A stretch of 35,646 nucleotides of DNA, taken from Candidatus Thermoplasmatota archaeon. Lineage in GTDB: Archaea; Thermoplasmatota; JASEFT01. The notes below the pieces were generated by a model. The model was given only the letters and a program-made list of their open reading frames with translations, searched no databases and was not told the DNA's origin. Positions 3,761 through 25,302 of the stretch are shown piece after piece (within the stretch, counting starts at the first letter, position 1; every line of letters starts with the position of its first letter). Position numbers and translations under genes: made by a program. The stretch covers positions 1 through 35,646 of the forward strand of contig JASEFT010000007.1 of the NCBI GenBank assembly GCA_030018475.1, in the 5' to 3' direction.

Positions 3761-4640
3761 ATGGAAAATGCGTTTCGTGCTATATGTAGATTTTGTAAAT
3801 CTAGAAATGTTACAAAATGGTGCAAGAGGAGAAATCTATATGCGATTAAGCAGAGATGGTTTTGTAAAAACTGCAAAAAAAACCTTCACTCCTGATGACG
3901 GTTTTCTCTGGAAACACTACAATCCTTTGATTATAGTAGGAGCTCTGGCTCTTTATATAATGGGCTTATCTGAAAATAACATTATTCATTATTTTTGGCA
4001 GCTGTGGGCTGTCAAGTTTAGTACAAGCACTTTATTTAGATGGAGAACCGAGTACTCTACGAAAGTAAAGAGGTTTGTAGACAGATTCAAGCCTGAAATT
4101 AAAGGTACTGTGCATACCGACGAGGTTGTCGTGAAGATAAGGAAAAAGAAAGGCTGGAGATGGGGTTGTATTGATAGAGTAACGAGATTCAAAATCTCAG
4201 GAAGACTTACTAAATGGAGAAGTTATGAGGAGGGTGCAAAACCTCTTTTTAGGAGGCTAAAATATCATACTAAGGGGCATATACCAAAGATAATCTCAGA
4301 TAAGTTAGGGCATTATAAGCTTGCATTTAACAAATATTTCTACCATACAAAAACCAAGCTCATTCATGGAGTACCGATTGCATGTAATAAACATGGGCTA
4401 AAGTACAATAACAACCCAGCGGAAAGAGATAACGGGAGAGTGAAGCAGCGATACAAAGTGATGAAAGGGTTTAAGTCTTATAGCTCGGCAGAAGCTTTTC
4501 TGGATATACTAGACATACATCATAATTACATCAAACCTAGTATGGCTCTGGATGGCAGCTACCCAGCTGAGCATGCTAACATACATTTACCCCTGGGAAG
4601 GAATAGATTACTCTCACTCATCCTGCTTGCTTCACTCTAA
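3761..4640 (+). pseudogene. IS transposase, zinc ribbon plus DDE domain, frameshifted at A8
   Basis: The transposase starts at ATG 3761. The first frame encodes a zinc ribbon with C9-x2-C12 and C35-x2-C38, then hits a stop after reading through the A8 run at 3875-3882. The rest lies in the frame that continues KKTFTPDDGFLW after CKNC and runs to 4640. Joining needs one A less (or a +1 shift) in the A8 run. The C-terminal part has a helix-turn-helix region (FSTSTLFRWR) and an RNase H-like DDE core: D in VHTDEVV, D in IISDKLGHY about 60 residues later, and E in NNPAERDNG about 41 residues after that. This spacing fits IS6/IS240-type enzymes. The whole reading totals about 293 residues. The shift may be decay or a programmed slippage as used by several IS families. 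Confidence 0.8.
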
Positions 4641-12010: not shown

Positions 12011-13012
12011 ATGTATGTAATTGAAGTTCAAGAGCTTACAAAAAGGTATAAAATTAAGAAAAAAGTACGTTTGGTAGAAACTTTTAAGAATAGGTTTAAG
12101 CCAGAAAAGTTTGACTACACGGCAGCTCTTAGGAATGTAAGTTTTAGTGTGGAATCAGGCGAAATATTCGGTTTTTTGGGTTACGAAGGTGCTGGCAAAA
12201 CCACTCTGATAAAAATTCTTAGCGGCAATCTCAAGCCAGATTATGGCGTTGCTTTGGTTAGTGGCTACGATGTAGTAAAAGAAAGACATAAAGTAAAAAA
12301 ACTCGTCGGTGTTATGCCCAGCTTAAACGATGTTAGTTTTAGTCAGAGGCTAACAATTTCACAAAATCTTAAGTTTTCGGCACTCAAAAGAAATTTTAAG
12401 TCATATAGTGAGAGAGTCGATAAAGTTTTGAAACTTGTAGGGTTAGAAGCTCTAAAAGATTACTACCCAGTAGTGCTTAACTCTTCGCAGCTCCAGAGAC
12501 TAAATTTGGCAAAATGTTTGCTAGCAGACAGTGCGATTTATTTGCTTGACGAGCCTACTGCAAATACAGATAGCACTACAACGAATACTATTAAAGAGAT
12601 TATTAAGAAATTAAAATCTGATGGTAAAAGTATTCTTTTAACTACTAGCAACCTTAGCGATGCTGAGGAGCTCTGCGATAGAATAGCGATTTTAAACGCA
12701 GGTGCAATCGTCAGGATAGAAGAAGCTGAGAAGTTAGAGAGGCTAGGGAAGGATATTTTTGTAGTAGATTTGAAAGAGTTAGCTCCAGAGCTAATCAGAA
12801 ATTTAGCAGCGCTTGAGTTCATTGATAAAATAATTTTTGAGAAAAATCGTATTGTGCTCTACGGCAAGCTAAAGAAACAGAATTTAGTAGAAGTTCTAGA
12901 GCTTTGTAGGAATTACAATGTTTTGAGCATAGATTTTAGAGAAGTAGATTTAAAAGATGTTTTGCTTGAGCTTGTAACTGAGGAAGAAAGAGCTTTAGAA
13001 GTCCTCCCTTGA
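12011..13012 (+). CDS. ABC-2 type transporter ATPase with degenerate catalytic motifs
   Basis: A 333-residue ATP-binding subunit of the NatA/DrrA kind. Walker A is GYEGAGKTT (57-65) and Walker B with the catalytic Glu is IYLLDEPTA (177-184). Three other hallmarks are altered: the Q-loop glutamine is replaced (VMPS at 101-104), the signature LSGGQ reads LNSSQ (156-160), and the switch histidine after LLTT is Ser (213). A C-terminal domain of about 90 residues follows, as in ABC-2 ATPases. No membrane-spanning partner lies next to it: a tRNA gene starts immediately after the stop. Binding without efficient hydrolysis, or use of a distant permease, is possible. No ribosome binding site is seen, so translation may be leaderless. 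Confidence 0.85.
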   Translation: MYVIEVQELTKRYKIKKKVRLVETFKNRFKPEKFDYTAALRNVSFSVESGEIFGFLGYEGAGKTTLIKILSGNLKPDYGVALVSGYDVVKERHKVKKLVGVMPSLNDVSFSQRLTISQNLKFSALKRNFKSYSERVDKVLKLVGLEALKDYYPVVLNSSQLQRLNLAKCLLADSAIYLLDEPTANTDSTTTNTIKEIIKKLKSDGKSILLTTSNLSDAEELCDRIAILNAGAIVRIEEAEKLERLGKDIFVVDLKELAPELIRNLAALEFIDKIIFEKNRIVLYGKLKKQNLVEVLELCRNYNVLSIDFREVDLKDVLLELVTEEERALEVLP

Positions 13013-13026
13013 TGGGGTCGTCGAGA

Positions 13027-13078
13027 TTCTCAGCGAGCGATTAGCGAGCTGAGAATGAGTTGATGCTAATCAACTCGA
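13027..13078 (-). other. tRNA-Pro intron 2 (T-loop, position 59/60)
   Basis: A 52-nt intron inside the T-loop. The outer helix is the T-stem TCGAG/CTCGA, the central helix pairs TTCA (exon 54-57) with TGAG (intron 3' side), and both 3-nt bulges read AAT. The inner helix CGAG/CTCG completes a standard bulge-helix-bulge. Any symmetric cut in the bulges restores TTCAAAT; the usual cut after the second base gives 59/60. Confidence 0.88.
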
Positions 13079-13099
13079 TTTGAACTCGAGTCGCCAGCG

Positions 13100-13146
13100 A
13101 TGCGAAACCTTTTCCGTTAACGCTTTTGCTGAAGGCAAAAAGGTTA
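13100..13146 (-). other. tRNA-Pro intron 1 (canonical position 37/38)
   Basis: A 47-nt intron. The inner helix AACCTTTT/AAAAGGTT, a central helix of three pairs (T33-G, G34-C, G35-T) and two 3-nt bulges (GGT and ATC) form a relaxed bulge-helix-bulge. Cutting each bulge after its second base puts the intron exactly between 37 and 38. Confidence 0.85.
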
Positions 13147-13186
13147 CCCCAGGCTGGTAGGATAGACCAAGCTACCCCACGACCCC

Positions 13187-13379
13187 TAACTGATAAAAGG
13201 ATTTATAAGTATTTTTGTGTTACCTTTTTGCATGCGCTGACGCTTGTGCTGAAGGAGTAAATCTAAAATGTTGCAATTACTCTATAAAAACACCTCATTA
13301 CATGGGCAAAAACTTTATAAACTCCAAAGTATTTTGGTAGTACGAAAATAAAAAAAGTAGCACTAAAAGGTGATAAAAG
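13187..13379. promoter_or_regulatory. Spacer with tRNA promoter region, intron-like repeat and TATA box
   Basis: A divergent spacer between tRNA-Pro and the next gene. It contains the tRNA's TATA-like element (13201-13209), a 16-nt near-copy (13240-13255) of the loop of tRNA intron 1 (13120-13135, 15 of 16 matching), and TTTATAAA at 13314-13321 as likely TATA box for the gene at 13380. No other gene is seen. Confidence 0.5.
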
Positions 13380-23853: not shown

Positions 23854-24321
23854 ATGAGTGAAGTAATGATAATCCTGGGAAGCGCATCAGATAAAGAAAT
23901 TGCAATTAAATGCACGGAGATATTGAAAAAATTTGGTATAGGTTATGAGGTTGCAGTAGCCTCTGCTCATCGTACCCCTGAAAGAGTAAAAGAAATAGTT
24001 GAGAAGAGCAATGCAAAAGTCTTTATTGCAATTGCAGGTTTAGCAGCTGCTTTACCAGGAGTTGTAGCTGCACATACTACAAAACCAGTAATTGGTGTTC
24101 CGGTTTCAGGTAAAGTGCCTCTTGCCTCTCTTCTCTCAATAGTGCAAATGCCTGCTGGTATACCAGTAGCTTGCGTTGGCGTAGATAATAGCGAAAACGC
24201 AGCGTTGCTAGCAGCTGAAATACTTGCACTTCAAAACGAAGAAATAAGTAAAAAATTAGTGCTCTATAGGCAAGAGCTGGAGAAGAAAGTGGAAGAATCT
24301 GCAAAATTAGAAAAATTATAG
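23854..24321 (+). CDS. purE: PurE, 5-aminoimidazole ribonucleotide carboxylase/mutase
   Basis: A 155-residue catalytic core producing CAIR for PurC. ILGSASDKEIAIKC, VAVASAHRTPERV, FIAIAGLAAALPGVVAAHTT and PVIGVPVSG form the nucleotide- and substrate-binding loops. The start at ATG 23854 lies 1 nt after the larB stop; a longer in-frame start would overlap larB needlessly. No purK is present here, so direct CO2 use (class II-like) is possible but cannot be settled. It overlaps the convergent queA by 6 nt. Confidence 0.93.
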   Translation: MSEVMIILGSASDKEIAIKCTEILKKFGIGYEVAVASAHRTPERVKEIVEKSNAKVFIAIAGLAAALPGVVAAHTTKPVIGVPVSGKVPLASLLSIVQMPAGIPVACVGVDNSENAALLAAEILALQNEEISKKLVLYRQELEKKVEESAKLEKL

Positions 24322-25302
24322 TATCAGCATTGCGTCCCCAAACGAATAGAATCTATATCCATTTTTTATTGCCTCTTTATAAGCTCTAAGAATTCTCTCC
24401 CTGCCTGCAAATGCGCAAGTAAGTAACAGAACGGTAGATTTAGGCAGGTGGAAGTTAGTGAGTAGAGCGCTGATACCAGACTTGAATTTATAACCCGGAT
24501 AGATAAACAAATCGCTCCAGCCTTCGCAAGCTTGGAGCTTACCATTTTTATATGCGCTTTCCAGTGCTTTTATAACAGTAGTTCCCACAGCAACCAATTT
24601 CCCACTTGTACCATTAATGAGCTCCGCGTTTTCTTTAGTAACTCTAAACCATTCCTTTTCTAACTTATGCTGGGTAATATTTTCTGCCCTTATTGGCATA
24701 AACGTCCCGGGACCAATATGGAGGGTAATGTATGCAAGATTGCATTTTTTCTCTATTCTTTTTAATAATTCTTTAGTAAAATGTAGCCCTGAAGTTGGCG
24801 CTGCAACAGAGCCTTCGTGTTTTGCATAAACTGTGTTGTACCTACTTTGATCATTTAATTCTTTTTTAATATACGGTGGCAGAGGCATTCTACCAATTTT
24901 AGCTAGATCTAACTTCCGATTCAACTCAATAACAAATTCCCCTTCTGCAATTTGTTTTTCCACCCTCCCCACAATACAGTTCTCAAACCCTATTTCAAGA
25001 CCAGCTCTAATCTTCTTCCCCTTAACCAGAGCTTTATATTTATTCGAGTTAAGCTTATCCAAAATCAAGAGCTCCACTTTACCACCAGTAGTTTTTTTAC
25101 CAACAAGCTTTGCAGGAATTACTTTCGTATCATTCAGTACTAAAGTATCCCCCGAGTCAAGCTCATCAACAATATCGTAAAATATTCTATGCTTAGTCTT
25201 TTCTCTTCTTATTACCATTAATTTTGAATTATCTCTAGGCTCAACTGGCACTTGGGCAATAAGCTCTTTAGGTAAATAATAATCAAACTCTGAGAGTTTC
25301 AT
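24316..25302 (-). CDS. queA: QueA, SAM:tRNA ribosyltransferase-isomerase
   Basis: A 328-residue QueA, which in bacteria transfers the ribosyl part of SAM to preQ1 in tRNA during queuosine synthesis. FDYYLPKELIAQVPVEPRD at the start, VLNDTKVIPAKLVG, RYNTVYAKHEGSVAAPTSGL (active site), LHIGPGTFMPI, ALLTNFHLPKSTVLLL and YRFYSFGDAMLI at the end are all family hallmarks, at full length. Archaea normally make archaeosine, not queuosine, and QueA is rare in them, so this gene is either a transfer or serves another modification. Its codon use looks like its neighbours. It overlaps purE by 6 nt and stands alone. Confidence 0.93.
   Translation of the reverse strand: MKLSEFDYYLPKELIAQVPVEPRDNSKLMVIRREKTKHRIFYDIVDELDSGDTLVLNDTKVIPAKLVGKKTTGGKVELLILDKLNSNKYKALVKGKKIRAGLEIGFENCIVGRVEKQIAEGEFVIELNRKLDLAKIGRMPLPPYIKKELNDQSRYNTVYAKHEGSVAAPTSGLHFTKELLKRIEKKCNLAYITLHIGPGTFMPIRAENITQHKLEKEWFRVTKENAELINGTSGKLVAVGTTVIKALESAYKNGKLQACEGWSDLFIYPGYKFKSGISALLTNFHLPKSTVLLLTCAFAGRERILRAYKEAIKNGYRFYSFGDAMLIL

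Follow-up and report, generated by a model that had tools for sequence, protein, structure and literature searches.

Two predicted introns, one of them within the T-loop, in a tRNA-Pro(GGG) gene of a Thermoplasmatota-like archaeon

The tRNA-Pro(GGG) gene and the structure of its introns

The window analysed here (the whole 35,646-nt stretch, contig 7 of a draft genome of 1.41 Mb in 133 contigs that is 95.5% complete, with a contamination estimate of 0.31%) carries at 13186-13013 on the minus strand a sequence that gives a complete tRNA-Pro(GGG) after 47 nt at position 37/38 and 52 nt at position 59/60 are taken out, as the preliminary description had claimed. The strand reads GGGGTCG TG GGGT...CCAGC CTGGGG, 47 nt, C GCTGG..TCGAG TTCAAA, 52 nt, T CTCGA CGACCCC A. 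Exon 1 (13147-13186, minus strand, as are all parts of the gene) comprises tRNA positions 1-37 with the anticodon GGG, and was delimited by reading the sequence and by alignment with the intron-less Pro(GGG) of relatives. It is followed by intron 1 (13100-13146; 47 nt, at 37/38), exon 2 (13079-13099; positions 38-59, with the 3' end TTCAAA), intron 2 (13027-13078; 52 nt, at 59/60 within the T-loop), and exon 3 (13013-13026), which consists of T60, the 3' strand of the T-stem (CTCGA), the acceptor strand (CGACCCC), and A73. In the spliced tRNA all 7 acceptor pairs and all 5 T-stem pairs are formed and the anticodon arm is complete; the T-loop TTCAAAT and the anticodon loop CTGGGGC are restored only without 13146-13100 and 13078-13027, as is expected of archaeal bulge-helix-bulge (BHB) tRNA introns. 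From end to end, the 75-nt product can be aligned with intron-free tRNA-Pro(GGG) genes of related genomes (85% identity in G023 and 88% in G033), and the intron borders are therefore fixed to within a nucleotide.

A candidate TATA-like sequence, CTTATAAAT, was noted by inspection of the sequence upstream of the gene (13201-13209, minus strand). On the other side, an ABC transporter ATPase gene (12011-13012, plus strand) converges on Pro(GGG), with its stop codon abutting A73 and a spacer of zero. Elsewhere in the window, a gene at 24316-25302 (minus strand) has a strong match (412 bits, NF001140) to QueA, a queuosine enzyme that is typical of bacteria and is found here on an archaeal contig, and an IS6/IS240-like transposase at 3768-4640 (plus strand) scores under the NCBIfam cut-off and over the Pfam one.

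The Pro(GGG) gene at 13186-13013 was missed by both ARAGORN and Rfam. A custom scanner requiring a full tRNA frame together with T-stem, central helix, and acceptor gave one match in the real window, as against none in 100 dinucleotide shuffles of it. Two other accounts of the insert were rejected. A contiguous alternative T-arm (CTCGA-GTTCAAA-TCGAG) forms locally, but by eye the acceptor stem then remains unpaired. As for a group I or group II intron, the window has no Rfam match to either at the gathering score, and 52 nt is too short for both.

Intron 2 can be folded onto the T-arm as a BHB. Its 5' side (13078-13089, minus strand) contains the T-stem strand TCGAG, the central strand TTCA, and the bulge AAT, and its 3' side (13021-13032, minus strand) the central strand TGAG, a second AAT bulge, and the T-stem strand CTCGA. 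The outer helix is thus TCGAG/CTCGA, and a central helix with 4 of 4 pairs lies between two 3-nt bulges. The intron is matched by a covariance model with an E value of 5.4e-7, a value to be read with Pro itself among the model's eight training sequences. The motif had been called textbook, and its central helix and identical bulges are as described. However, an unpaired C shifts the inner helix CGAGT/GCTCG by one nucleotide, and without constraints the fold of lowest energy is not the BHB but a pair of hairpins (-26.4 versus -19.7 kcal/mol at 37 °C, and -5.8 versus -3.0 kcal/mol at 75 °C), so that the preference for the hairpins is 6.7 kcal/mol at the lower temperature and 2.8 kcal/mol at the higher. 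Hairpin 1 (GAGTTGAT/ATCAACTC; 13057-13076, minus strand) covaries with tandem copies in tRNA-Ala(CGC), and hairpin 2 (ATTCTCAGC/GCTGAGAAT; 13026-13056, minus strand) uses the 3' splice strand that the BHB also requires. Both are kept by four compensated pairs across the Pro intron and two full Ala(CGC) units, a small sample of three closely related copies, and the Ile(GAT) intron has an inverted repeat at the corresponding place. This suggests that the structure of the excised or unspliced Pro-type intron may matter. Intron 1 forms an imperfect BHB, with 3 of 4 central pairs when the borders are set so as to leave the anticodon stem intact.

T-loop introns across the genome and in other archaea

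Combining the custom scan with a covariance model (R1), at least 14 tRNA genes of this genome were found to have a 59/60 intron. In addition to Pro(GGG) (52 nt), these are Ala(GGC) (53 nt), Ala(CGC) (153 nt), Ala(TGC) (111 nt), Glu(TTC) (104 nt), Glu(CTC) (43 nt), Gly(TCC) (53 nt), His(GTG) (23 nt), Ile(GAT) (51 nt), Leu(CAG) (47 nt), Leu(TAA) (62 nt), Leu(TAG) (42 nt), Ser(CGA) (22 nt), and Ser(GGA) (55 nt). All 14 have 7/7 acceptor pairs, 5/5 T-stem pairs, 3-nt bulges, and a 4/4 central helix with TTCR, the scanner having demanded 4/4 central pairs for the first eight genes and at least 3/4 for the later ones. In a partial census of the genome, about 24 of the 34 tRNA genes found bear introns. 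A T-loop intron is present in each of the Ala (GGC, CGC, TGC), Glu (TTC, CTC), and His genes found, and an Rfam tRNA search of the genome, a method that picks up intact tRNAs readily, did not recover an uninterrupted gene for Ala, Glu, His, or Ile. Because no intact copies were found, the Ala, Glu, and His introns must be spliced; judged from sequence, these tRNAs should work only after intron removal, unless the intact copies all sit in the missing few per cent of the genome.

Several of the introns are related to each other. A BLAST search of the Pro(GGG) gene against its own genome gave matches in the T-loops of tRNA-Ala(CGC) and tRNA-His; one intron family is common to Pro, His, and Ala(CGC), and another to Ala(GGC), Leu(TAA), Leu(TAG), and Ser(GGA). 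The Ala(CGC) intron (L024:1493-1766; G000:C22) consists of three tandem units of 49, 52, and 52 nt, each ending in a potential 3' splice site. Units two and three each reproduce the Pro(GGG)-type intron from end to end, with identities of 41/52 and 44/52, and this one tRNA therefore holds a tandem array of T-loop introns.

These data bear on whether Pro(GGG) could be a decayed pseudogene, that is, a dispensable gene entered by a mobile or repeat element, with its codons read by the products of the TGG and CGG genes. Pro(TGG) and Pro(CGG) are indeed both present, intact, and intron-free, and the Pro intron is related to the repeats in tRNA-Ala(CGC). Against this, the Pro(GGG) exons are undamaged, the insertion sits exactly at the site where a BHB is formed, and a BLAST search of the genome found the intron nowhere but in tRNA genes. 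According to the preliminary description, an intact Pro(GGG) elsewhere would point to a pseudogene; no second Pro(GGG) gene was found in this draft, and an intact copy could be among the part missing from a genome at 95.5% completeness. The pseudogene explanation was rejected since tRNAs that cannot be spared (His, and all Ala and Glu found) bear the same introns and intact copies of them were not found, and it is very improbable.

Further unusual tRNA genes were observed in the same genome. Apparent D-loop introns are present in Leu(GAG) (L014), Leu(TAA) (L118), and Leu(TAG) (L119), and Leu(TAA) apparently has three introns. A partial second tRNA-Tyr with different inserts (L114:1525-1767; G000:C18) lies directly upstream of tRNA-Tyr(GTA). 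tRNA-Trp(CCA) (L002:993-1139) has a long 37/38 intron that, on inspection, seems to contain box C/D motifs, a feature already known from tRNA-Trp of archaea.

Among 145 genomes of the phylum (MAGs titled Thermoplasmata), 34 have R1 matches at E<=0.001, with up to 12 matches per genome in one family of relatives (f4). A set of named genomes, which overlaps the 145 as judged from identical match coordinates (G051 is Thermoplasmata AUK033, G142 is AUK189, and G080 is Thermoplasmatota S4B5_HD70), includes S5B5_HD70 with 18 matches, AUK033 with 13, and M10_bin2222 with 6. Parvarchaeota CSMAG_2747 has four, and Methanomassiliicoccus-type genomes have one or two. A search with R1 of Thermococcus, Methanohalophilus, Methanothermococcus, Archaeoglobaceae, and Methanoregula genomes gave no matches. 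In another family (f17), there is a single intron of 20-24 nt, always in tRNA-Arg(TCT), with a variable inner helix. R1 matches were obtained in 39 of the 151 genomes of a Thermoproteota sample, mostly one per genome and six at the most. T-loop introns had initially been described as known mainly from Thermoproteales; as counted with R1, they are instead commoner per genome in the present phylum (up to 12-14) than in the Thermoproteota sample, with the reservation that R1 was trained on this genome's own introns and may under-count relaxed introns in Thermoproteota.

The structure of the motif was further assessed at 36 loci of other genomes, where introns were delineated from the exons alone and a helix was not required. 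The central helix has 4 of 4 pairs at every one of these loci, and residue 57 covaries with its partner in all of them (A-U at 14, G-C at 22). The loci are mutually related and were found by R1, which favours pairing and the strict motif, and thus form a biased sample; the covariation gives strong, but not independent, support to the predicted fold.

An assembly or binning artefact, in which the contig is foreign or tandem repeats were misassembled, might be considered for a draft of 133 contigs. However, the 59/60 introns are spread over 11 or more contigs of the bin, several of them with intron sequences in common, contamination is estimated at the 0.31% given above, and independent MAGs of related genomes contain the same kind of intron. 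An artefact is therefore exceedingly improbable. The closest L13 sequences come from Thermoplasmata MAGs, and the earlier view that a 59/60 intron beside a euryarchaeal gene set is unusual is borne out, in contrast to the few, single, 37/38 introns reported for euryarchaea (PMC4090602, PMC4033280).

The splicing enzymes and a proposed course of splicing

The preliminary description had called for a check of the endonuclease subunit type. The genome has a single EndA gene, which encodes a protein of 352 aa with two PF02778 and two PF01974 domains, and it also encodes the ligase RtcB, so that both an endonuclease and a ligase are available. The best PDB match of EndA is the loop-less Methanopyrus kandleri fusion (5X89), followed by M. 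jannaschii, ARMAN-2, and A. fulgidus. One gene with two N/C domain repeats, of which the second is catalytic and retains Y, H, and K, is the arrangement of alpha'2-type enzymes; separate alpha and beta subunit genes with a CSL, as in the Thermoproteales-type (alpha beta)2 enzyme, are not what this genome has. Relative to A. fulgidus, the C-terminal unit is ungapped across the site of the crenarchaeal CSL and the ARMAN ASL. In an alignment of 30 EndA sequences, the alpha units of Odin-, Loki-, Thor-, and Bathyarchaeota have a ten-residue insertion (YGKPLGIRKPKxPxF) at the loop site, and the CSL/ASL insertion is absent from the EndA described here and from alignable relatives with T-loop introns.

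Two relatives, G051 (94% complete, 12 T-loop intron matches) and G059 (99% complete, 7 such matches), gave no tRNA_int_endo match; a missing contig or a divergent enzyme could be responsible. The genome S5B5_HD70 (G168; L078, L196) has one EndA, a one-domain protein of 197 aa without a CSL and possibly of the alpha4 type.

According to the literature read, alpha4 and alpha'2 enzymes are accompanied by few introns, always at 37/38, and introns at odd positions depend on (alpha beta)2 or epsilon2 enzymes equipped with a specificity loop (PMC4090602, PMC4033280, PMC6379350, PMC12397907). Alpha'2 enzymes have been described as confined to the canonical BHB (PMC4090602, PMC4033280), and a 2025 structure paper links strict recognition of the motif to a missing loop (PMC12397907). 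The suggestion that the T-loop intron would need an endonuclease of relaxed substrate range is not upheld, given a two-domain, alpha'2-like EndA without CSL or ASL and T-loop introns with a 4-bp helix and 3-nt bulges on both sides. To judge from their sequences, the introns mostly represent a strict motif at an unusual position. Alternatively, the introns could be real and the alpha'2-like EndA relaxed by means other than a CSL or ASL, or by a partner. The imperfect 37/38 BHB of Pro(GGG), the offset inner helices of several T-loop introns, the greater stability of the competing fold, and the apparent D-loop introns in Leu genes are in favour of such relaxation. Nevertheless, no insertion is present at the loop site of this EndA or of its alignable relatives with T-loop introns, the T-loop introns have both 3-nt bulges and the 4-bp helix, and the alpha'2 enzyme of A. 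fulgidus is already able to excise a relaxed 37/38 BHL intron when the substrate is full-length pre-tRNA (PMC6379350). A relaxed EndA is thus rather unlikely.

Overall, Pro(GGG) is very probably a functional single-copy gene whose pre-tRNA is spliced twice by an EndA that is strict for motif and free as to position. In the proposed course of splicing, the T-loop intron would fold back on the T-arm, with TTCA (positions 54-57) pairing with TGAG near the intron 3' end to give the BHB. EndA, being alpha'2-like and loop-less and thus presumably strict for the motif and not for its position, would read this BHB on the extended T-arm and cut both AAT bulges after AA, and RtcB would then ligate TTCAAA to T60. 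The elbow between D-loop and T-loop could probably form only after ligation. Nearly all tRNAs have the T-loop sequence TTCRAAT in common, so that a 59/60 intron would form its own splice site in nearly any of them; it would be spliceable in a new tRNA with just YGRR-AA near its 3' end, and could thus move to almost any tRNA. Anticodon-loop introns, by contrast, would have to fit each anticodon loop. A movable YGRR-AA intron would therefore explain the concentration at 59/60, the occurrence in at least 14 tRNAs, and the sharing of introns between tRNAs. A wider proposal, possible but offered tentatively, is that Thermoplasmatota have a dedicated class of T-loop introns that spread from tRNA to tRNA under a strict, loop-less alpha'2 enzyme, with TTCRAAT giving half of the splice site, and that in one family (Pro, Ala(CGC), and partly Ile) the covarying hairpins sequester the 3' site and may be a folding switch in splicing.

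Motif strictness and freedom of position, two properties that have been confounded, would come apart in this genome and its relatives, and the usual rule that an odd intron position implies a relaxed enzyme would need revising. The lineage would also be a second one, besides Thermoproteales, for the study of tRNA intron movement. In MAGs of this kind, tRNA genes are easily overlooked in annotation, as the failure of ARAGORN and Rfam to detect Pro(GGG) illustrates.

Comparison with known systems

Non-canonical introns, including those at 59/60 and 56/57, are known from Thermoproteales (Sugahara 2008 and Fujishima 2010, as cited in PMC4090602 and PMC4033280). The present genome resembles these in having BHB introns at positions other than 37/38, tRNAs with several introns, and similar introns across tRNAs, which in Thermoproteales was read as intron transposition. 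It differs in its euryarchaeal lineage, in having one alpha'2-like EndA without CSL instead of an (alpha beta)2 enzyme, and in that nearly all non-anticodon-loop introns found are at the one position 59/60. Like the alpha'2 enzymes of A. fulgidus and Thermoplasma acidophilum (1RLV, 2GJW, 2OHC), EndA has two tRNA_int_endo repeats of which the second is catalytic, and neither a CSL nor an ASL; however, the protein is longer than those enzymes and occurs in a genome with many non-37/38 introns. A homodimeric-type enzyme together with non-canonical introns is also found in Korarchaeum cryptofilum, but its alpha2 EndA was reported to have a specific loop (PMC4033280), which is absent here. In Atabeyarchaeia and Freyarchaeia, too, introns are present in a very large proportion of the tRNAs, with non-canonical positions and multiple introns (PMC11291895), although these are Asgard archaea, and the Asgard EndA alpha units in the alignment contain a CSL-like insertion.

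No paper on T-loop introns in Thermoplasmatota was found in the literature searched. BHB introns at 59/60 and the sharing of introns between tRNAs are already known from Thermoproteales, and non-canonical introns from Asgard archaea (PMC11291895). As far as the literature searched shows, what is new is the abundance of T-loop introns in a Thermoplasmatota-like lineage whose alpha'2-like EndA has no specificity loop, together with the tandem intron array.
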